The translations under genes were made by a program, and so were the position numbers. Below the pieces are notes generated by a model. It searched no databases. It saw nothing but the letters and a program-made list of their open reading frames with translations, and was not told the DNA's origin. From a virus, in IMG/VR virus record IMGVR_UViG_3300020215_000082, positions 1-43,883 of that record: a DNA stretch of 43,883 nt. One strand, given 5' to 3'. The first letter of the stretch is position 1; every line of letters starts with the position of its first letter. This document shows, piece after piece, positions 13,194-39,553 of the stretch.

Positions 13194-13338
13194 TACTTCG
13201 TATTCTCGGCCCAATACTGGACACAACAAACGCTCCCAGGCGAACAAAGCTAAAGAGGAAGTAGCTGAGTTGCTCGCGCAGGGAGCGCTTACACAAGGGG
13301 ACATTGAATATGTCTTCCAGAACAGTATTGAGGATTAG
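13177..13338 (+). CDS. Small hypothetical protein at end of lysis cassette
   Basis: A 53-codon gene reading MEKKSDTSYSRPNTGHNKRS, then a helical Ala/Glu-rich segment and DIEYVFQNSIED. It overlaps the holin-like gene by 17 nt in another frame and its stop overlaps the stop of the convergent RadA-like gene by 4 nt. The amino-acid composition is natural (charged, no rare residues), which supports it as real. No family recognised. Confidence 0.55.
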   Translation: MEKKSDTSYSRPNTGHNKRSQANKAKEEVAELLAQGALTQGDIEYVFQNSIED

Positions 13339-14141
13339 GTTTCGAACGGAATCAATCCCCTATCGGTCATCTGGAAGTATACTTCTCTGTCACTCGGACC
13401 GAATCGGTTTTTGTAATCAATATAGAGTTTCCGTTCGTCACTTCCCTTCTCACCCTCGAACTTGAGTAATACGTCGACGTCGTGCGCGAGGGTTTTCGGG
13501 CCTGCGGTGTTTCCATCCTTGATTACGTGACAGATTATGAGTACTGCGATGTTGTAGTTCTTGGACAGGTTCATGACCGTGCGTGAGGCATGGCGAATTT
13601 GATTCACATTACCTGCTCTACCATTGATTCGCGGTGAGGTAATACATTGGATAGAATCGATCACAAGTAAGTTTGGTTTTTCAATTCTCGCTGTTTCTAC
13701 GATGTCTTCCAAGGTGGTGCTGTTCAACACTGCCAAGTCCATTGAAACATTCAATCTTTTGGCACGATTGGCAATTTGACTGGGTGCCTCCTCCCCTGCT
13801 GCGTAGAGTATTTTTTTTCCTGCGCGGAGCATGTTGTCACATATCTGCAGGGTCAGAGTGGACTTCCCTATTCCAGGATCGCTGGAAAAGAGCGTTACCG
13901 AGTTGGAAGCAAATCCACCCCCGAGCAATTCATCGACCTGCGGGATTCCTGTAGAGAACCGTTCTATATCACAGTCCACTTCTGCAAGTTTGATGGGCGT
14001 GAGTTTGTTACCTACGAATGGATCAATCAGTACTTCTTCCTCATTCATTGTGTTTGCTTCACCACACCGAGAACACTGAGGCATCCAGTAGCTCGACTGC
14101 TTTTCACATTTACTACATACGAATTTGTTTTGATTTTTCAT
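13335..14141 (-). CDS. radA: RadA/Sms-like ATPase lacking the C-terminal Lon-like domain
   Basis: A 268-residue protein. Residues 8-30 form a zinc finger (CSKC-x10-CSRC) with the NTM that follows it in RadA. The RecA-like core has a Walker A SSDPGIGKST near residue 85 and a Walker B LLVIDSIQ near 157. The RadA-specific KNRFG motif is present near residue 243. Bacterial RadA is around 450 residues with a C-terminal Lon-protease-like domain; here the protein ends right after the ATPase core. RadA drives branch migration and D-loop extension in recombination. In a phage without a DnaB-type helicase, this stripped form may act in replication or recombination. It ends the leftward 13.3-15.5 kb block. 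Confidence 0.88.
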   Translation of the reverse strand: MKNQNKFVCSKCEKQSSYWMPQCSRCGEANTMNEEEVLIDPFVGNKLTPIKLAEVDCDIERFSTGIPQVDELLGGGFASNSVTLFSSDPGIGKSTLTLQICDNMLRAGKKILYAAGEEAPSQIANRAKRLNVSMDLAVLNSTTLEDIVETARIEKPNLLVIDSIQCITSPRINGRAGNVNQIRHASRTVMNLSKNYNIAVLIICHVIKDGNTAGPKTLAHDVDVLLKFEGEKGSDERKLYIDYKNRFGPSDREVYFQMTDRGLIPFET

Positions 14142-21658: not shown

Positions 21659-22018
21659 CTACTTCTTCCTCCCCACAGGTGCGGGGATGACTAGGATTAC
21701 ATCTACAACCTTCTTTATCTTCCTCCACTTCGGCTCTATTGTGGGCTTTTTGTCATACACTGCCATTGCCCCATTCTTTTTAGTTTTTGTAGCGTAACAA
21801 AGACGATCACGGGGTTCCTGTTTATCTATAATTGCGTAAAGACCATCTGCCAACACCTTCTGCGTCTTGGGCTTCTTTGCGTTTTTGCCACTACATGTCT
21901 TGTATCCACAGCCTTCTGTTATACAGTACCGACCCTCATGTCCACAAACACTGCAATAAGAGATTGTCCGGCTATGGGATTCGTTGTGCGTCTTCTTTGC
22001 TTTCGTTGGTTTGGTCAT
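21659..22018 (-). CDS. Small Cys/Lys-rich hypothetical protein
   Basis: A 119-residue very basic protein (MTKPTKAKKTHNESHSR start). CSVCGHEGRYC and GCGYKTC form a likely zinc-binding site in residues 22-42, followed by Lys-rich segments and a hydrophobic strand (VVDVILVIPAPVG) near the end. The start lies within the 3' part of the methyltransferase gene, with a 47-nt overlap. Charge and zinc site suggest nucleic-acid binding. Confidence 0.6.
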   Translation of the reverse strand: MTKPTKAKKTHNESHSRTISYCSVCGHEGRYCITEGCGYKTCSGKNAKKPKTQKVLADGLYAIIDKQEPRDRLCYATKTKKNGAMAVYDKKPTIEPKWRKIKKVVDVILVIPAPVGRKK

Positions 22019-22748
22019 AGGTAGAAATTATTGATTTAAAGATTTGGTACGCAACTTGTGGCACAATGGCGTTTCCGTATGCTTTTATTTCATTTCGAGC
22101 CATCGTGACGGATAACCCATCGCCGTTGCGTACACCTCCGGTACATCCTGCCATCTCATCCCACGTTCTAGGGAAATAGTTGCGATGCTTGGAGAATGCC
22201 TCTTTCTTGAACTTAGGTACGCCGTTGTTCGACTCAAATCTCGGTAGTCTCTCGCAATTGGCGTCGGCAGCGATAATCCACAGTCTTTCCCGTTTGTGTG
22301 GGGCATTGACGGCGCGAGCTGGAATAACCAACGGTTGTACCTCGTAGCCCTCTGCTTCCAAGTCAGAGCACACCTGCTCGAATACCATTCCGTTGTTCCA
22401 AGTAATGAGTCCAGCAACATTTTCGCCCACAACCCATTGCGGTTGTACCTCTCGTATAACTCTAAGCATTTCCGGCCAGAGATAGCGGTCATCTTCTGTG
22501 CCTTGTCTTTTTCCTGCTTGGGAGAAAGGCTGACAAGGGAATCCTCCAGAAAGAACGTCAATTGTCCCTCTAAAGGGCGTACCGTCAAATTGTTTGATAT
22601 CAGTGAATCGTTGGACATTCGGGAAATTCTTAGTTAAAACTTTCTGGCAAAACGGATCGATCTCTACCTGAAACACATTTTCAAGCCCTGCCCACTCTGC
22701 CGCGAGGTCAAAGCCGCCAATACCGCTGAATAGTGAGGCGTGAGTCAT
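21972..22748 (-). CDS. C5-cytosine DNA methyltransferase
   Basis: A 258-residue enzyme that would methylate cytosine C5 in DNA using S-adenosylmethionine. All key motifs are present: I (FSGIGGFD at 7-14), IV with the catalytic Cys72 (GGFPCQPFSQAG), VI (GENV, Glu109), VIII (KRERLWI) and X (YGNAIVPQ). The target-recognition region between VIII and X is short, giving a compact enzyme. The start overlaps the upstream stop as ATGA. It probably protects the phage from host restriction; no cognate nuclease is next to it. A second-frame ORF of 177 codons lies wholly inside this gene (22085-22618). Confidence 0.95.
   Translation of the reverse strand: MTHASLFSGIGGFDLAAEWAGLENVFQVEIDPFCQKVLTKNFPNVQRFTDIKQFDGTPFRGTIDVLSGGFPCQPFSQAGKRQGTEDDRYLWPEMLRVIREVQPQWVVGENVAGLITWNNGMVFEQVCSDLEAEGYEVQPLVIPARAVNAPHKRERLWIIAADANCERLPRFESNNGVPKFKKEAFSKHRNYFPRTWDEMAGCTGGVRNGDGLSVTMARNEIKAYGNAIVPQVAYQIFKSIISTYDQTNESKEDAQRIP
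22085..22618 (-). CDS. Overprinted ORF nested in the methyltransferase gene (second frame)
   Basis: A 177-codon frame, offset from the methyltransferase frame and entirely within it. The product has sensible composition and contains SPKQEKDKAQKMTAISGRK, LTWKQRATRYNRWLFQLAPS, LSLPTPIARDYRD and an ending MGYPSRWLEMK. I recall phage proteins with the same LTWK / LFQLAPS / LPTP-RD / MGYP-W signature order, but this cannot be verified here. Because the methyltransferase motifs are conserved, its second frame will also look conserved, so coding must be shown independently. The start at 22618 lacks a ribosome site; an internal Met (22492) has AAGG 8 nt upstream. Confidence 0.4.
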   Translation of the reverse strand: MSNDSLISNNLTVRPLEGQLTFFLEDSLVSLSPKQEKDKAQKMTAISGRKCLELYERYNRNGLWAKMLLDSLLGTTEWYSSRCALTWKQRATRYNRWLFQLAPSMPHTNGKDCGLSLPTPIARDYRDLSRTTAYLSSRKRHSPSIATISLERGMRWQDVPEVYATAMGYPSRWLEMK

Positions 22749-23693: not shown

Positions 23694-24046
23694 GTGAGTT
23701 GGTAATTAAATTTATATCCCCGCTTGGCGAGCTCTCCGGTTACATCTTCGAGAGAACGTGCCACTATTGCGATTGCTCCTGCTTCTTTTAACCGCTGTTG
23801 AAACCATTCTTGCTCTGGTCTGACATCTTCATCTGGACGCTTTACCTCGATAAATATGGCCTTCCCATCTATTACTCCGGTGATATCTGGTTGTCCCTTA
23901 AAATCGTAAATATTGTTAGATTTTTGCCATATACCTTTTTTTTCGTTGTAGTGGCCTTTTACATTTACCTTCCACGCGAATATTCCCACGGCGTTTAACC
24001 AACCGAGAATCTGATATTCGATGTATTTTTCTTTAATCGGCTCCAT
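23690..24046 (-). CDS. VRR-NUC domain nuclease
   Basis: A 118-residue protein equal to a stand-alone VRR-NUC module (PD-(D/E)XK superfamily). The core reads GQPDITGVIDGKAIFIEVKRP, with the catalytic Asp and the E-x-K of the active site, followed by the helix QEWFQQRLKEAGAIAIVA that is conserved in this family. Phage VRR-NUC proteins act on branched DNA, often as Holliday-junction resolvases. The start lies inside the upstream gene by 14 nt. It fits the recombination set with the exonuclease, SSB and RadA-like protein. Confidence 0.88.
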   Translation of the reverse strand: MEPIKEKYIEYQILGWLNAVGIFAWKVNVKGHYNEKKGIWQKSNNIYDFKGQPDITGVIDGKAIFIEVKRPDEDVRPEQEWFQQRLKEAGAIAIVARSLEDVTGELAKRGYKFNYQLT

Positions 24047-24260
24047 GTAGTGCTTTTTTATTTTCTAAGGTATTCCGTACAGTCATATGATTGAACTTGG
24101 ATTGTTCTAAGTGCCAATCCCACTCTCCGAGAGCCAAAGCGCGGTGACCGCATTCTGAGCAGTGGTTTACCCACAAGCCGCGGTAGCCGCGTACGACGAG
24201 TCTTGCTTTGCAGCATTCACTCGGACCATCACGTTTAGGATAGCGTTGCATTATTGCCAT
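24033..24260 (-). CDS. Small zinc-binding protein
   Basis: A 75-residue protein with CC (residue 16), CSEC (about residue 34) and nearby His residues (HCSECGHRA), a plausible zinc site. Trp/His-rich middle (WDWHLEQSKFNH). It overlaps the VRR-NUC start by 14 nt and is overlapped at its start by the 51-codon gene upstream. Possibly a nucleic-acid binder accompanying the nuclease; not a recognised family. Confidence 0.6.
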   Translation of the reverse strand: MAIMQRYPKRDGPSECCKARLVVRGYRGLWVNHCSECGHRALALGEWDWHLEQSKFNHMTVRNTLENKKALHGAD

Positions 24261-24390
24261 TGGATTGAAGTATTATGTTGTTATAAATTAAAAGTTTGAT
24301 TCTGTTTCTGAAATTTGCGGCTGTTGATTTAACTGGGTCTTGCTTCCAGATGCGGCCAAACATGAACATTTGCGTCGCACGTTGTTTCAT
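24235..24390 (-). CDS. Small basic hypothetical protein
   Basis: A 51-codon gene: MKQRATQMFMFGRIWKQDPV, then KSTAANFRNRIKLLIYNN and a polar end. It overlaps the next gene by 26 nt. The repeated pre-start element at 24397-24414 lies 6 nt upstream of the ATG, as at three other small genes, which supports this start. No motif recognised. Confidence 0.4.
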   Translation of the reverse strand: MKQRATQMFMFGRIWKQDPVKSTAANFRNRIKLLIYNNIILQSNGNNATLS

Positions 24391-24396
24391 TAAACC

Positions 24397-24414
24397 GTAA
24401 AGATATAAGGTTGC
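24397..24414 (-). promoter_or_regulatory. Copy of repeated pre-start element (site c)
   Basis: GTAAAGATATAAGGTTGC matches the first part of the element at 21575-21599 at 15 of 18 positions and lies 6 nt upstream of the leftward ATG at 24390. Unlike sites a and b it is not followed by TGGCGGT; instead the strongly structured element at 24420-24527 begins 6 nt farther out. Confidence 0.45.
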
Positions 24415-24419
24415 GCCGC

Positions 24420-24527
24420 TACTTGTCCCATTGCTCCCAGTAGCGAAGGGAGGCTAATTTGCATTGCAATGCATAGGTGCTTCCGACAATGGGATCAGAA
24501 ACGTGAGTTTCCTAAGTGGGACAAGTA
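24420..24527. ncRNA. Strongly structured intergenic element (candidate structured RNA or cis-regulator)
   Basis: An 11-bp perfect closing stem pairs TACTTGTCCCA (24420-24430) with TGGGACAAGTA (24517-24527). Inside are a CTCCC/GGGAG hairpin (24434-24452), a 14-bp palindrome TGCATTGCAATGCA (24460-24473) and a GAAAC-GTGA-GTTTC hairpin (24498-24511), a GNRA-type tetraloop on the plus strand. TCCCATTG (24426-24433) can instead pair with CAATGGGA (24487-24494), so two exclusive folds exist. The direction of transcription is uncertain; neighbouring genes are leftward. It does not fit a tRNA. Possible roles: riboswitch-like control, small RNA, or a DNA cruciform or origin signal. Confidence 0.55.
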
Positions 24528-24595
24528 TGAACATGTCCTATTAGGGCTATGATGATAATAAATATTGCTGTCCATATAAGAATTTTGTCCTCCAT
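24512..24595 (-). CDS. Putative 27-residue membrane peptide
   Basis: A very short frame reading MEDKILIWTAIFIIIIALIG followed by HVHTCPT. It is a single hydrophobic helix with a charged N-terminus, typical of small phage membrane peptides, and it starts 5 nt after the upstream stop. Its 3' end runs into the structured element at 24420-24527. Without expression data it remains tentative. Confidence 0.35.
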   Translation of the reverse strand: MEDKILIWTAIFIIIIALIGHVHTCPT

Positions 24596-24600
24596 CGTAC

Positions 24601-24807
24601 TTAGTTATCAAAATCAATTTCAGGTAAATGTGTTCGCACAACCTCACGTGTACGTTTCAAAGTAACGTGGTATTCAGCATCTGTAATCTGGCCTCTCTCT
24701 GTCCATTTTTTTAGCGGGCCAAAAGTGCGTGCGAGATCATCATCAGGGAAGGGATGAATGGAGATAGGTTCTCCGTTTAGGGTTGCCATAGATTGGGGAT
24801 TATTCAT
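24601..24807 (-). CDS. Small hypothetical protein
   Basis: A 68-residue soluble protein (MNNPQSMATLNGEPISIHPF) with a helical segment of the form KWTERGQITDAEYHVTLKRTRE and an acidic end. No motif recognised. It overlaps the upstream gene by 8 nt. The start may be Met1 or Met7. Confidence 0.55.
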   Translation of the reverse strand: MNNPQSMATLNGEPISIHPFPDDDLARTFGPLKKWTERGQITDAEYHVTLKRTREVVRTHLPEIDFDN

Positions 24808-25087
24808 GAATTATTTTTGATATCGAAGTGAGTTCTAATGTGTTTTTGGGAGGAGTTGGGCCTCCTACACTGTATTCAATTGTTGAGCTATTAATTAGAC
24901 AGTTAAATTCACCCGTTTTGGAATCAGAAAACTCAAAAAAACAAAATTCACCTTTTTTCATTTTTTTTATACGAGCTATAACTGCCCAGTGGCTAATTGG
25001 ATCAACAAAGAGTTTATAGCCATCAGAACAGCGCAATATATATGCAATCATATTTTTTGTAGCGATTGATAGTATTCTTCCTTCCAT
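24800..25087 (-). CDS. Hypothetical protein, beta-rich
   Basis: A 95-residue protein predicted to be mainly beta (ILSIATKNMIAYILRCSDGYKLFVDP ... GEFCFFEFSDSKTGEFNCLI), resembling a small barrel. The gene starts inside the 3' end of the initiator gene, a 40-nt overlap. No family recognised. Its position suggests an accessory of the replication module. Confidence 0.55.
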   Translation of the reverse strand: MEGRILSIATKNMIAYILRCSDGYKLFVDPISHWAVIARIKKMKKGEFCFFEFSDSKTGEFNCLINSSTIEYSVGGPTPPKNTLELTSISKIIHE

Positions 25088-25863
25088 TTTTTAATTTTCT
25101 CTTCAGGGGGATCGAGATTTAAATTGTTCTTGTAACGTGCGATTCTATCTTTGACCTCAGGAGGAAGTTCGTCGCTTTCTTTAACAACTACCTCGTTTTT
25201 CCAACACTCCTGGTTAAGCCAAGTAACTGCGTGACGCCATGGTGGCTGCCAAACATTCCGCTTCTTGTTCTCTTCGTACACATCGATTTGCTTTAAAAGT
25301 CCTCCAAAAATCTCGCCGCACACTTCTGCCGACACGGCAACACGCTGGTAAGACTCCAACGTCTTCTTCTTCGATTGGTTGGTTTTGTCAGGATATGTTT
25401 TCCAGAATTCTTCAAAATAAGAAAGTAATTCGAACCCTTTATTATTCTTTTCTTTTACTTTACTTTTATTTTTATTTAATAGCATTACATTCGTATTCCG
25501 GTCTGCATTCGTTCGTAATACGTTCGTATCCTTCTGTTTCCAGCGTCTGTTAACCGATTTTCGAGCCTTGTCACTTTTTTCTTGTCGTTGAGTTAGGCGT
25601 AATAAAATTGAGACGCTCCAAAACTTTTTTTCATCATGTTCAAATAAATCAGATTCGATTATCGTTTTTACAAAGTCGTTATTCGTTCGTAATTCGAACG
25701 CAATACGATCGTATTCCGAGATGTCCAAAGTGCCTCCCGCCTCGTATAGCATTTCGAAGATACACCAGACTGCACCAAGTCCAGCTAATCCATGCTGCAT
25801 GAGAATACGTTGCAGCTTCTTATCATTTCGAGCGCCGTAGTCGTGGCTGAAGTATTCTCGCAT
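25048..25863 (-). CDS. Second replication initiator-like protein (DUF4373/Lin1244-type N-terminus)
   Basis: A 271-residue protein. The N-terminus MREYFSHDYGARNDKKLQRI, then HGLAGLGAVWCIFEMLYEAGG matches the DUF4373-type domain of phage replisome organisers. Residues 95-145 are a Lys/Asn-rich linker. The C-terminal part (YFEEFWKTYPDKTNQSKKKTLESY ... WQPPWRHAVTWLNQ) resembles the helicase-loader-contact region of phage initiators. The gene contains two clusters of 11-bp iterons (25485-25713), in the linker and in the N-terminal domain. It probably binds them and recruits the host helicase. It is unusual to find two initiators in one small phage. Confidence 0.75.
   Translation of the reverse strand: MREYFSHDYGARNDKKLQRILMQHGLAGLGAVWCIFEMLYEAGGTLDISEYDRIAFELRTNNDFVKTIIESDLFEHDEKKFWSVSILLRLTQRQEKSDKARKSVNRRWKQKDTNVLRTNADRNTNVMLLNKNKSKVKEKNNKGFELLSYFEEFWKTYPDKTNQSKKKTLESYQRVAVSAEVCGEIFGGLLKQIDVYEENKKRNVWQPPWRHAVTWLNQECWKNEVVVKESDELPPEVKDRIARYKNNLNLDPPEEKIKKWKEEYYQSLQKI
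25485..25713. repeat. 11-bp iterons in two clusters within the second initiator gene
   Basis: Cluster 1: TTACATTCGTA (25485), a degenerate unit (25496), ATTCGTTCGTA (25507) and ATACGTTCGTA (25518). Cluster 2: ATTCGTTCGTA (25681), ATTCGAACGCA (25692) and ATACGATCGTA (25703). Units follow each other in an exact 11-bp register. Eleven is not a multiple of three, so protein repeats cannot explain them. This suggests sites for a protein on one face of the DNA, most likely the initiator encoded here. Origin function is inferred. Confidence 0.65.
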
Positions 25864-25864
25864 G

Positions 25865-26131
25865 TTAGTTGTAGGTTTTTGTCATGGGAAATAAAGTTCG
25901 CTGCAACTGCTCAGGGGCAGTCGAGGAGAAGTGTGCAATCGGAACTTCTCGGATCAATCGATAGCGGGCGGTTTTCTTGCCTTCTTGGCGCTCGGAGAGG
26001 ATGTGGTAATGGGCATCACGCAATTCGCTTATGCGGTTCCGGAAACTCCATCCCAGGTGGATGAATTCTTCTGCGCCGTGCCATTTACCATCATTGAGAA
26101 TATTGAGTACTTCCTCCTTCATTGTTTTCAT
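25865..26131 (-). CDS. Winged-helix domain protein
   Basis: An 88-residue protein whose first 60 residues form a compact winged helix: EEVLNILNDGKWHGAEEFIH, LGWSFRNRISELRD, then HILSERQEGKKTARYRL as the wing. This pattern is common in small phage DNA-binding proteins. The stop is 1 nt before the initiator start, so the two are probably co-translated. It may help at the origin or regulate transcription. The C-terminal 20 residues are variable-looking. Confidence 0.7.
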   Translation of the reverse strand: MKTMKEEVLNILNDGKWHGAEEFIHLGWSFRNRISELRDAHYHILSERQEGKKTARYRLIREVPIAHFSSTAPEQLQRTLFPMTKTYN

Positions 26132-26274
26132 GGGCGTTGGTTGGTTACGTGATTGGTTGTTGTGGGGTGATTGGCTTCCAGTAGCTTCTTGATCAGAAAC
26201 CAGTGGGTTCCCATACCCGTCAGGAAGCCAATGAAGAACGGGTTGCTGAGTAAGTTGGTAATGGTGTCTTGCAT
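26128..26274 (-). CDS. Small membrane protein
   Basis: A 48-residue protein (MQDTITNLLSNPFFIGFLTG start) with one hydrophobic span (about residues 11-30) and a polar tail rich in Thr/His/Asn. I prefer the ATG at 26274, since an upstream in-frame start would add a charged, unlikely N-terminus. The stop overlaps the next start by 4 nt. Function unknown. Confidence 0.5.
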   Translation of the reverse strand: MQDTITNLLSNPFFIGFLTGMGTHWFLIKKLLEANHPTTTNHVTNQRP

Positions 26275-26417
26275 GGGGGTAATAAAAACAAGGTAAATAG
26301 TGTGATCCCTGTTTTTATTTTTGTTTTGTTCGTGCCGGCTGACCATCTATCGTTGCCTTCAGGTCATTTATCTCTGCATCCCTTGTTATGGTACGCAACA
26401 GGGCAGAGCACCAGCGA

Positions 26418-26570
26418 TTACGCGTTATTTGTACAGTGGGGTAGGTGAGTATCTTTCATGCCGCTGCCGCAGTTCTGGCAGGAATACTTTCGCTTCTGAT
26501 CGCGTTCTCTGCGTTCTGCCTGCTGCTGGAGTCTTTCTATATGTCGGATTGGTTTGATTTCGAAGATCAT
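26418..26570 (-). CDS. Small zinc-knuckle protein
   Basis: A 50-codon gene: MIFEIKPIRHIERLQQQAER, a basic stretch RERDQKRKYS, then CQNCGSGMKDTHLPHCTNNA. CxxC plus HLPHC gives four likely zinc ligands after a helical basic front. It is 9 nt from the next upstream gene. The 26275-26417 interval downstream of it holds no gene I can support. Function unknown. Confidence 0.5.
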   Translation of the reverse strand: MIFEIKPIRHIERLQQQAERRERDQKRKYSCQNCGSGMKDTHLPHCTNNA

Positions 26571-26579
26571 AGGGGGTGA

Positions 26580-26978
26580 TTAGGGGATAGATTTAAGGGC
26601 TTTGCGTATCTGTTCGACAACTGGTTGCAACTCTTCCTCGGTCATATCGCTAGCATGTGCGCCTTGCAGGAATTTTTCATTGAACGCGTCTTTGTCTAAT
26701 CCTGTTTTTTTGCAGTACACTGCGCGGAGTGCGAAGAAATCTTGGAAGAAAGTCGGTTGCTTTTCGAGGTACTCTACGGGCAGGAATTCGTCATTCTGCG
26801 GCTCCTCCTTTTGGTCGATCTCTACTGTGACCTTTAAGTTGATTCCATTCAGTGCAGGAGATGTGAGCGGTATGAAGTTTTCATACTCCGAATCTGGTAC
26901 ATCAAGTTCAACTCTGTGCGAACTGTCGGTTCGCAGTTTCTTGACAAACGGTGAATGGGCAAGAAAGGTCAGTTTCAT
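26580..26978 (-). CDS. Hypothetical protein in replication module
   Basis: A 132-residue protein. The N-terminal half is beta-like and acidic (RVELDVPDSEYENFIPLTSP), the C-terminal half helical (FFQDFFALRAVYCKKTGLDKD ... EELQPVVEQIRKALKS). It starts 3 nt after the SSB stop, so it is probably co-expressed with SSB and the exonuclease. No family recognised. Confidence 0.65.
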   Translation of the reverse strand: MKLTFLAHSPFVKKLRTDSSHRVELDVPDSEYENFIPLTSPALNGINLKVTVEIDQKEEPQNDEFLPVEYLEKQPTFFQDFFALRAVYCKKTGLDKDAFNEKFLQGAHASDMTEEELQPVVEQIRKALKSIP

Positions 26979-26981
26979 GGC

Positions 26982-27533
26982 TTAAAAAGGTACATCTTCG
27001 ATTGAGACTTCCTTTTTGTTTGGTACGACGGTTCTGTTTTCGAGAACAGGTTTTCCTTCGAACAGATTTTCCAGGTTGAATTTCATCAGGTTGAATTTTT
27101 CAAGAATTTCTGGTTCAAGTTCTTCTTTCGGCTGTGGGAATACCTGGTATTCGGTATCGAATCCTTCTCCGGATCGAATGATGTTGATGTCATACGAAAG
27201 GGGAGAGCCCCACTTGGGATTCTTAGCTAGCGCCATAACAGCACTTTGGATACCTTTTTGGGTTACTTCGAGCAGATGGAATGCATTGTCCTTGCGGGAA
27301 TAGACAATCATTGCCCAGAAGTGACGTGCGGGATTTTTTTCTGATGGCACAAAGTCAAAGGTTCCATCCATTCGGATGTGTACAGGTTTACGTTTGTCAC
27401 CATCATCCTTCCAAGCGACCATTCCAAGTACTGGCTTGGTCATGATGCGGATTTCATTGTCGCCTTCTTCCAACTTCATCGTGAAGTTATTGGAAGGGAC
27501 ACTGTAATCGTTGGGTAAAAAGTCTTGATTCAT
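26982..27533 (-). CDS. ssb: Single-stranded DNA-binding protein (phage type)
   Basis: A 183-residue protein. Residues 14-130 are compatible with an OB fold (LEEGDNEIRIMTKPVLGMVAW ... HFWAMIVYSRKDNAFHLLEVTQKGIQSAV). The C-terminus VSIEDVPF is the acidic, hydrophobic-ended tail through which SSB proteins recruit partners. The segment with RHFWAMIVYSR is reminiscent of phage SSBs related to T4 gp32/T7 gp2.5-type proteins. It lies between a predicted exonuclease and replication proteins, as expected. The family is recognised by pattern and tail rather than by a full alignment. Confidence 0.75.
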   Translation of the reverse strand: MNQDFLPNDYSVPSNNFTMKLEEGDNEIRIMTKPVLGMVAWKDDGDKRKPVHIRMDGTFDFVPSEKNPARHFWAMIVYSRKDNAFHLLEVTQKGIQSAVMALAKNPKWGSPLSYDINIIRSGEGFDTEYQVFPQPKEELEPEILEKFNLMKFNLENLFEGKPVLENRTVVPNKKEVSIEDVPF

Positions 27534-27541
27534 GAGTAGGG

Positions 27542-28279
27542 TTAGGTTAATGCGAGCGATGTAGGATAGTCTTTCTGGGAAGGTTTCTGTCTACTGGATT
27601 CTTCTTCCCAGATAGCTTTTGCAGCGAGGAATAAAGGAAACTTGTCTTCAACTTCGGTGTACTTGTAGTGCTTCTTGTTGAGCTTGTATCCGAGTTGAAG
27701 GATTGCGAGTTTGTCGATCTTTTCCACTTTCTTTTCTTCGAGAGCTGCTTTTTTGAGAGCGGATACCTGGAGTTCGTGACTTGGCCAGATGTACTGGGAA
27801 GTTTTTATGTCGATCAGCACGATTTCGTCCTTTATCAGCGCCATTATGTCGCCAGTACCAGCGTAGCCGTGCTCATCGGAGAAAACTGTGAATTCAGAGA
27901 GCAGGAATTTGGGTTTCATTTCGTTGGCCCAATCTACAAAGGACATGAGGCATTCGTACTCGGATACAGTCAGTTCTTCTTCTTTTGCGGTATCGGGATT
28001 GAGATACTTCGCATCCATCGTGATTTTCTTACCAGCTACGAGGTCTTCAATAGCTCTATGAACCTTTGAGCCACGGCTGCCAGCTAGAGTTTTAATTTCT
28101 TCTGCTTCGTCCCAGCCCTTGGAAGCCAACCACTTGAAGTATTCCTTCCCCTTCGGGTAGTGGCTGCAGATCCAAGTGACAGAAGGGATAAAGGTCACGT
28201 TATCTTTCGAATACCAACGTTCGTCAGTTGTCGTGATTTGGATCTTATCGCCTATAATGTTGCGTATTTGAATTTTCAT
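27542..28279 (-). CDS. PD-(D/E)XK exonuclease (RecB/Cas4-like)
   Basis: A 245-residue protein starting MKIQIRNIIGDKIQITTTDE. I chose the ATG at 28279, as an upstream start would invade the preceding gene. Motifs: GSKVHRAIEDL (motif I, His/Glu), EFTVFSD with AGTGDIMALI (motif II Asp), VLIDIKTSQ (motif III D-x-K) and ELQVSAL (the Gln helix). These are the RecB-nuclease family positions. With SSB next to it, it probably resects double-strand ends or trims recombination intermediates. No helicase domain is attached. Confidence 0.85.
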   Translation of the reverse strand: MKIQIRNIIGDKIQITTTDERWYSKDNVTFIPSVTWICSHYPKGKEYFKWLASKGWDEAEEIKTLAGSRGSKVHRAIEDLVAGKKITMDAKYLNPDTAKEEELTVSEYECLMSFVDWANEMKPKFLLSEFTVFSDEHGYAGTGDIMALIKDEIVLIDIKTSQYIWPSHELQVSALKKAALEEKKVEKIDKLAILQLGYKLNKKHYKYTEVEDKFPLFLAAKAIWEEESSRQKPSQKDYPTSLALT

Positions 28280-38650: not shown

Positions 38651-39553
38651 ATGGCTGCTAGTGATCGATTGATTTTAAAGGGCTCTACCGGTCTCGTGGT
38701 ACGAACCGCAGCTGGAAACGAATCCGTCGTTATTTCAAACGAGGGTGTTGTTGCTTTTTCCGGTCTGTCATTTACGGGAAATATAACAATCGGTGATGCT
38801 GCAACTGATACACTTACAATCACCTCTCAGGTGGCTGCAAGTGTGGCTTTCGTGAAAGAAGCCAACTACACGGTTTCTGTCGCAACGTCTACTACTGCCA
38901 ACACGGCAGGCGGTAACCTGACCGTGGTATCTGGTGCTGGTAGCGGTTCTGCTGCAGGTGGTATAGCTTCACTTACCGGTGGCGTAGGTGGTGCAACTGG
39001 TGCAGGTGGTGTCTCTAGAATCGTAGGTGGTGCAGGTGGTGCAACCTCCGGAACTGGTGGTGCTGCTCAAGTGACGGGTGGTGCTGGTACGGCCGGCAAT
39101 GCAAACGGTGGTGATGTTGTCATCACAGGTGGTGCTGCTCATGGCACTGGAGTAGCTGGATATATTATGCATCGTTCGATGTTTAGTATCTCTCAGGGTG
39201 CTCCGACGGCTAAAACAACCTCTGCAACGTTGACCGCTGCCGAAGTTTTAGCTGGAATTATTACGGTGAATCAGGGCGCCGGCGCAACCTCTGCGCTGAC
39301 ATTGCCTCTTGCCACTGCAATGGATACGGCTTTGCCTGGATTTGCTGCTGGAGATGCCTTTGACTTCTCTGTGATTAACATTTCTACGGTGGATGCGGAA
39401 GATGCAAGTGTAGCAACCAATACAGGTTGGACCCTAGTTGGTTCTATGGACGTGCCTGCGAATAATTCGTCTTCGGTCACGAACAACTGTTCCGGCCGAT
39501 TCCGAGCTCGCAAGACTGGTGCAGGAGCCTGGACTCTGTATCGACTTTCATAG
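38651..39553 (+). CDS. Head fibre / glycine-rich virion protein
   Basis: A 300-residue protein. The N-terminal 50 residues are an attachment-like beta region. Residues 85-170 are a Gly-rich repetitive stalk (GGVGGATGAGG, GGAGGATSGTGG and so on, encoded by GGTGGTGCA-type repeats). The C-terminal 120 residues form a compact beta domain ending WTLYRLS. The architecture and position after the capsid gene fit a head fibre. The preceding hairpins and an AT-rich leader (TATAAAATATTATGG) may set its expression. Confidence 0.7.
   Translation: MAASDRLILKGSTGLVVRTAAGNESVVISNEGVVAFSGLSFTGNITIGDAATDTLTITSQVAASVAFVKEANYTVSVATSTTANTAGGNLTVVSGAGSGSAAGGIASLTGGVGGATGAGGVSRIVGGAGGATSGTGGAAQVTGGAGTAGNANGGDVVITGGAAHGTGVAGYIMHRSMFSISQGAPTAKTTSATLTAAEVLAGIITVNQGAGATSALTLPLATAMDTALPGFAAGDAFDFSVINISTVDAEDASVATNTGWTLVGSMDVPANNSSSVTNNCSGRFRARKTGAGAWTLYRLS

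Follow-up and report, generated by a model that had tools for sequence, protein, structure and literature searches.

A Putative Replication Origin of 11-bp Repeats within the Lin1244_N Initiator Gene of a Phage

INTRODUCTION

Why are DNA units of 11 bp repeated in tandem inside a viral gene that appears to encode a replication initiator? The window, by which we mean the whole stretch of DNA analyzed, is the complete virus record of 43,883 bp, and the record itself may be a fragment. Origins that reside within genes are already known from lambda O and from RepA_N plasmids. Lambdoid origins combine iterons with an AT-rich tract, midway through O (PMC7466680). The winged-helix N-terminal domain of pSK41 Rep binds Rep boxes located centrally in rep, within the code for the linker, and an in-frame deletion of this linker is tolerated if ori is supplied (PMC5703833).

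The gene considered here belongs to the widespread Lin1244_N family, and Bacteroidota, Bacillota, enterics, and vibrios are all represented, by phages, prophages, or plasmids, among the loci collected. We came across no account of iterons inside genes of this family, a weak negative with most subscription journals outside the literature covered. The name "DUF4373" turned up in two listed papers, both dealing with iron in Bacteroidetes.

RESULTS

The gene and its product

The earlier assignment of the gene to the DUF4373 type is borne out by Pfam. Residues 4-86 of its product match the whole PF14297 profile (Lin1244_N, formerly DUF4373) with 36.1 bits, above the curated gathering cut-off of 25, and a Lin1244_N match at E≤0.01 is present in all 58 members of sequence set A5. 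The protein also matches PHROG 2562 (replication initiation protein; 7.9e-17), and its residues 92-225 match PHROG 9327 (primosomal protein; 7.6e-9). At E≤0.01, PF14297 was the only Pfam match, and neither a lambda-O-type nor a RepA_N model was matched.

An AF2 model built with 58 sequences has a block of residues 11-110 with pLDDT 90 or more, with helices at 15-41, 48-57, 62-69, and 84-110, and the linker has a disordered stretch at 121-141 (Table 1). A fold search with the N-terminal domain against the PDB gave winged-helix folds of middling score, with Z up to 6.7 among the 50 matches listed; pSK41 RepA was absent from these 50, a listing that excludes nothing. Foldseek gave no match at E≤0.001, no credible solved structure of the family came up in a sequence search, a single-protein scan of viral contigs found no relatives of the window protein, and Rfam had no match over 24,000-27,600.

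The gene has SSB-like and exonuclease-like genes upstream in the same strand block. A C5 cytosine methyltransferase gene is located at 21972-22748; the match of its protein to the Pfam profile extends only over roughly the initial half (positions 1-179 of 324). The phage terminase is closest to those of Pelagibacter phages (48%), and the best-scoring relative of the initiator among loci L009-L248 is encoded on a Bacteroidales MAG contig (L172).

Table 1. Positions of the initiator gene and of the features within it
Feature	Position in window	Strand	Description
Initiator gene, 271 aa	25048..25863	minus	winged-helix Lin1244_N domain at the N-terminus, then a disordered linker and a helical C-terminal domain
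N-terminal domain, residues 1-110	25534..25863	minus	winged helix and long helix 84-110 (AF2)
Cluster A, 3 contiguous 11-bp units	25682..25714	minus	~codons 50-61, helix 2 and turn of winged HTH
Putative specificity segment, codons 96-108	25540..25578	minus	after winged helix; residues covary with iteron sequence across family
Cluster B, 4 slots of 11 bp, third degenerate	25486..25529	minus	linker, ~codons 112-126
A-rich tract, putative DNA-unwinding element	25434..25485	minus	directly after cluster B
C-terminal domain, residues 142-271, helical	25051..25440	minus	AF2, less certain than N-terminal domain

Two clusters of units in one gene

When all 43,883 bp were searched, every exact ATWCGWWCGTA site proved to reside in the initiator gene, within a span of 25507-25714. 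There are six strand-matches at only four places, because two of the places are palindromic. The expectation is 0.18, and none of 100 shuffles of the 43,883 bp gave at least six. Tandem pairs of units with up to three mismatches were matched five times, always in the initiator gene and not once in any of 100 shuffles. A looser search for single units with two mismatches gave 80 matches across the window against 62 +/- 9 by chance, which is barely above the chance level. The repeat signal is the clustering of units, rather than the number of loose matches in the window as a whole.

On the gene strand, cluster A reads ATACGATCGTA TTGCGTTCGAA TTACGAACGAA and cluster B reads ATACGAACGTA TTACGAACGAA TGCAGACCGGA ATACGAATGTA, the fourth slot of cluster B carrying a mismatch. 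Cluster A codes for helix 2 and the turn, and the linker is encoded by cluster B together with the A-rich tract. The original prediction of two clusters in 11-bp register within the DUF4373 gene is thus upheld, and the register is exactly 11 bp in both. Its description of the iterons themselves as exact slightly overstates the case, because the copies differ.

That these units constitute a signal at the level of DNA, and not codon repeats, had also been proposed, and comparison with 5000 synonymous recodings of each cluster's own amino acids agrees. The 11-bp self-match is 17/22 in cluster A (P=0.0018) and 20/33 in cluster B (P=0.0016), and the relatives described below agree as well. An array model applied to the window gene gives p=0.01 for the linker array of cluster B. 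When in-gene periods of 7-30 were scored in 56 ORFs of the window, the initiator gene was the strongest, at period 11, with z 3.8 and p=0.003 over the 24 periods, a value that is the floor of this test; the runner-up ORF reached p=0.05. Because 11 is not a multiple of 3, consecutive units fall in different reading frames. Short 9-bp repeats of the GGTGGTGCA type are present in a plus-strand ORF at 38978-39043, and their period, unlike that of the 11-bp units, is a multiple of the codon.

One recognizable initiator gene

Two initiator genes in one phage, both with repeats of their own inside, had been taken as a hint of two origins or two modes of replication. Comparison of 38 ORFs of the window with Pfam and/or PHROGs left the gene discussed here as the sole initiator-family match, and no comparable in-gene period turned up in the other 55 ORFs of the period scan. 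An unrecognized initiator might hide among the ORFs without a family match, but these, too, lack comparable in-gene repeats. Besides the initiator gene, a single helicase- or initiator-type match came from the 38 ORFs, a DnaB/KaiC-like ATPase at 13335-14141. This ATPase gene is on the same strand as the initiator gene and far from it, and its top match is a PHROG of unknown function (9.6e-46).

A version confined to one gene can also be imagined, in which clusters A and B fire separately as independent origins, and the occurrence of one motif in two clusters 185 bp apart in a single gene would fit such an arrangement. However, the A-rich tract adjoins cluster B only, and a unit-matrix scan of the window detected single sites and no second cluster elsewhere. 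With unit clusters nowhere else in the window and no second initiator gene among the 38 ORFs, two origins or two modes, in either version, are without support, and we regard them as very improbable.

An 11-bp period in many family members

Relatives provide a broader view of these repeats. To the 247 relatives collected we added the window gene, and 73 of the 248 were dropped as near-duplicates, as incomplete, or as shorter than 180 aa, which left 175. The best window of 33 matches was determined in every gene at all periods of 7-44 and compared with 200 synonymous-codon shuffles of that gene, with windows of less than 33% GC masked. Period 11 is the strongest of all (mean z 1.44), reaching p≤0.01 in 49 and p≤0.05 in 73 of the 175 genes. 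Its harmonics 22, 33, and 44 also stand out. At p≤0.01, period 22 is found in 25 genes, 10 in 22, 33 in 19, 20 in 11, 15 in nine, and 25 in eight, and the remaining periods are found in 0 to 4 genes each.

Of the 73 genes significant at p≤0.05, 58 have their best 11-bp window starting at codons 100-139, 11 have it starting at codons 40-59, and four have it elsewhere. Both places occupied in the window gene, the code for the linker and the code for the winged helix, are thereby shared by relatives. By the array model, the linker array is significant (p≤0.05) in 108 of the 175 genes. The other 67 lack one at this level, among them the gene of a Porphyromonas phage with p=0.80 for its linker array and p=0.02 for cluster A. 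Arrays in the cluster-A region reach p≤0.05 in 28 of 175 genes, compared with about nine expected (binomial 5.7e-8). The sequence of the unit varies between lineages, and the layout is kept in many relatives.

The original prediction had pointed to homologous genes as the place to look for the same period, with its absence there counting against the idea. The period and both positions recur, not only in the 175 genes but also in a hold-out set drawn from 140 loci, of which 135 had complete ORFs, 22 were new and dissimilar to the first set, and 18 carried a usable array. In these 22 genes period 11 again ranks first (mean z 2.2; p≤0.05 in 16), followed by 22, 33, and 44, with windows at codons 106-145 in 13 genes and codons 42-46 in three.

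A mundane explanation would be that the pattern is a by-product of an Asn/Thr/Lys-rich linker, a conserved helix, and codon bias. The linkers are indeed of low complexity, and without the GC mask multiples of 5 dominate the scan because of A-rich stretches, period 10 then reaching p≤0.01 in 45% of the 175 genes. However, synonymous shuffling holds both the protein and its codon usage fixed, and only 11, 22, 33, and 44, together with the multiples of 5 of the A-rich tract, stand out from it. The rotation of the units through the reading frames also argues against such a by-product, as does the positive control: the same scan applied to lambda O recovers periods 20, 23, 24, and 44, corresponding to the annotated iteron spacing (20, 24, 23). 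Lambda O relatives were reduced to one gene by dereplication, so they were used only in this way, and A118-like initiators, with three genes left, were too few for a comparison family. We consider compositional bias the least probable of the explanations weighed here.

The adjoining A-rich tract

The tract that follows cluster B comprises 52 nt with 32 A, 11 T, 8 G, and 1 C on the gene strand. For the relatives, 100 linker-array genes were used after eight of the 108 with GC <30% were dropped (L003, L007, L049, L181, L190, L210, L230, and L242). The densest-A 40-mer in these genes begins a median of 6.5 nt after the array, and 79 of the 100 have this start between -20 and +80 nt. When synonymous codons were shuffled in the A-rich stretch only, period 5 reached p≤0.05 in 43 of 175 genes and period 10 in 40, with periods other than multiples of 5 reaching this level in at most five. 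Pentamers of the AAAGA, AAAGT, and TAAAG kind are common. A 5-nt single-strand footprint of the DnaT kind was considered as the cause of this period and rejected: DnaT binds a 2-base unit per protomer (PMC4132743).

Several tracts are of interest individually. Those of E. coli-type genes, including that of phage mEp515, look 6-bp periodic by eye. L008 and the E. coli alleles L413-L419, which are of this type, retain four GGTCA units at 11 bp, followed by a tract whose length differs between alleles by multiples of 3 bp. On a Paenibacillus cellulosilyticus plasmid (L421, 2229-2690), the annotation gives the Lin1244 gene as a 153-aa piece with its stop inside the A-rich tract; the tract runs on past this stop and a second ORF follows, an indication that the gene is split or carries a frameshift.

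A probable origin bound by the gene's own product

We think it likely that the replication origin of the phage lies inside the initiator gene and is bound by the product of that gene. The protein, a putative initiator with a winged-helix N-terminus, a flexible linker, and a helical C-terminal domain, would bind the near-palindromic 11-bp units through its N-terminal domain. On cluster B this domain would assemble in steps of 11 bp beside the A-rich tract, the tract would melt, and the C-terminal domain would bring in the helicase machinery. Cluster A would serve as an accessory block of the same sites, placed in the code for the binding domain itself. That the units are read along one helical face, as originally predicted, is likewise plausible.

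Nucleotide skew lends this proposal soft backing. Between 18 and 30 kb, cumulative GC skew has its minimum at 25,829, within the initiator gene, and the third-position skew of same-strand genes differs across this gene (p=2e-5). The backing is soft because minus-strand genes at 24.0-25.1 kb already show positive third-position skew, which does not fit a sharp switch. Other points count against the proposal: the 67 relatives without a significant linker array, the middling scores of the winged-helix matches, and the E. coli-type alleles, of which 22 are distinct and 21 were aligned (L109 was left out), where variability in the iterons is not clearly below that of the remaining gene.

The same sites might instead be operators: bound inside the gene by the initiator or by another regulator, they would serve to shut off transcription, and no origin would be present. 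Units that are nearly palindromic fit dimeric regulators, self-complementarity reaches p≤0.05 in 37 of 100 arrays (p=0.07 in the window), and cluster A stands apart from the tract. However, the usual site is in mid-gene beside an A-rich tract, as in the lambda ori, and ladders of three to seven units at 11 bp would seem to exceed what an operator needs. Relatives also occur on plasmids: genes closely related to that of EF62phi are found on 18 plasmid records of E. faecalis, and inspection by eye shows both clusters and the tract in Crassaminicella pCT01, a circular plasmid record. An operator alone therefore seems to us unlikely, and operator and origin roles could coexist.

Residues that track the unit

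The motif similarity of gene pairs was compared with identity at each residue, with overall identity controlled. The strongest covarying residues are W108 and V104, and values are also high at 96, 97, 99, 100, 103, and 107. Mean partial r is 0.16 for residues 96-108, 0.03 for residues 84-95 of the same helix, -0.03 for residues 60-71, and 0.10 for the N-terminal arm (1-13). Among groups with similar winged helices, segment 96-108 still tracks the motif with r=0.62 (null 0.20 +/- 0.09, P=0.001), compared with r=0.35 for residues 1-90. The pairings can be read directly: KARxSAxKRW occurs with TGCRNNYGCA, KRSEAGKKGA-KRW with TAGC..GCTA, K[LM]SEAGKRG with TAGCCACCC, and AGKKSAEKR[AK] with CAACG..CGTTG.

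The canonical recognition helix (60-71) was rejected as the specificity determinant, since it does not track the motif once overall identity is controlled (Mann-Whitney p=0.99); within tight clusters it has a weak link to the iteron (r=0.13, P=0.017). In the 18 hold-out genes, taking the motif of the training gene nearest in segment 96-108 gives a motif similarity of 0.713, against a baseline of 0.509. Prediction by the recognition helix gives 0.588 (segment better, p=2.7e-4), and prediction by residues 1-90 gives 0.632, the segment being better in 10 of 18 cases and worse in six (p=0.035). Segment 96-108 lies directly upstream of the iterons, and the two may be exchanged jointly as modules. 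Residues 84-95 are almost as near and yet do not covary, which argues against pure hitch-hiking.

Cluster A in relatives

Each of the 100 genes had its linker motif scored on its own codons 46-64 in competition with the motifs of the other genes. The gene's own motif fits better than theirs, with ranks far from uniform (KS 3e-8). The effect is absent or marginal in the control regions, with KS values of 0.82 at codons 4-17, 0.052 at 20-33, 0.052 at 72-85, and 0.91 at the C-terminus. This rank test is partly confounded because relatives have common ancestry. Against synonymous shuffles, the wider cluster-A region reaches p≤0.05 in 20 of 100 genes, with five expected. Judged by its sequence, then, cluster A is the same motif as the linker array. 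The window's own group and Bacillota with TGCAAATGCA-type units show it most clearly. Codons 4-17 (HDSNAR) were also considered, as a third site, and were rejected on their negative own-motif result.

DISCUSSION

Comparison with known systems

The arrangement resembles the lambda ori, in which iterons also occupy the middle of the initiator gene (codons 117-145 of lambda O, compared with codons 112-126 here) and are followed by an AT-rich tract. It differs in that the annotated iterons of lambda measure 18 bp and recur at steps of 20-24 bp, against 11 bp here, and the Pfam families are different. To our knowledge, lambda has neither a second cluster in the code for its DNA-binding domain nor a 5-bp period in its tract. 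RepA_N initiators such as pSK41 Rep share the placement of binding boxes within DNA coding for the linker, but the repeats in pSK41 rep are about 22 bp by eye, and the window protein lacks the RepA_N match.

Within the Lin1244_N/DUF4373 family, EF62phi and E. coli phage mEp515 both carry 11-bp linker arrays with p≤0.05. Their units, TAGC..GCTA-like in EF62phi and GGTCATGA-like in mEp515, are unlike that of the window, and neither has a significant cluster A. A different parallel is provided by PLE RepA and Odn of Vibrio cholerae and ICP1, in which the DNA-binding domain of the initiator covaries with the origin iterons (PMC8263062). Lin1244_N initiators share this covariation, but the PLE RepA/Odn iterons are semi-palindromic and about 30 bp long, the origin is intergenic, and the initiator has a RepA_N domain.

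Implications

What is new here is cluster A, the 5-bp tract, and the covariation of the repeats with residues 96-108 instead of the canonical recognition helix. Together they suggest a bolder proposal, to which we give somewhat less than an even chance. The basic segment 96-108, not the canonical recognition helix, would select the 11-bp iteron, such that segment and iteron change together and each is predictable from the other. In part of the family the code for the DNA-binding domain would itself be a binding site, so that two stretches of the gene serve both protein and origin, and the 5-bp-periodic A-rich tract beside the array would carry a further signal of its own at the level of DNA, perhaps read in single-stranded form.

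Dual coding of this kind would account for the unusual linker repeats of Lin1244_N proteins, which rotate through the reading frames. The 11-bp ladder and its A-rich tract would also offer a sequence rule for finding origins in unannotated phage contigs. Finally, the covariation of segment and iteron would provide a direct test of how initiators shift origin specificity while protein and origin share the same DNA.
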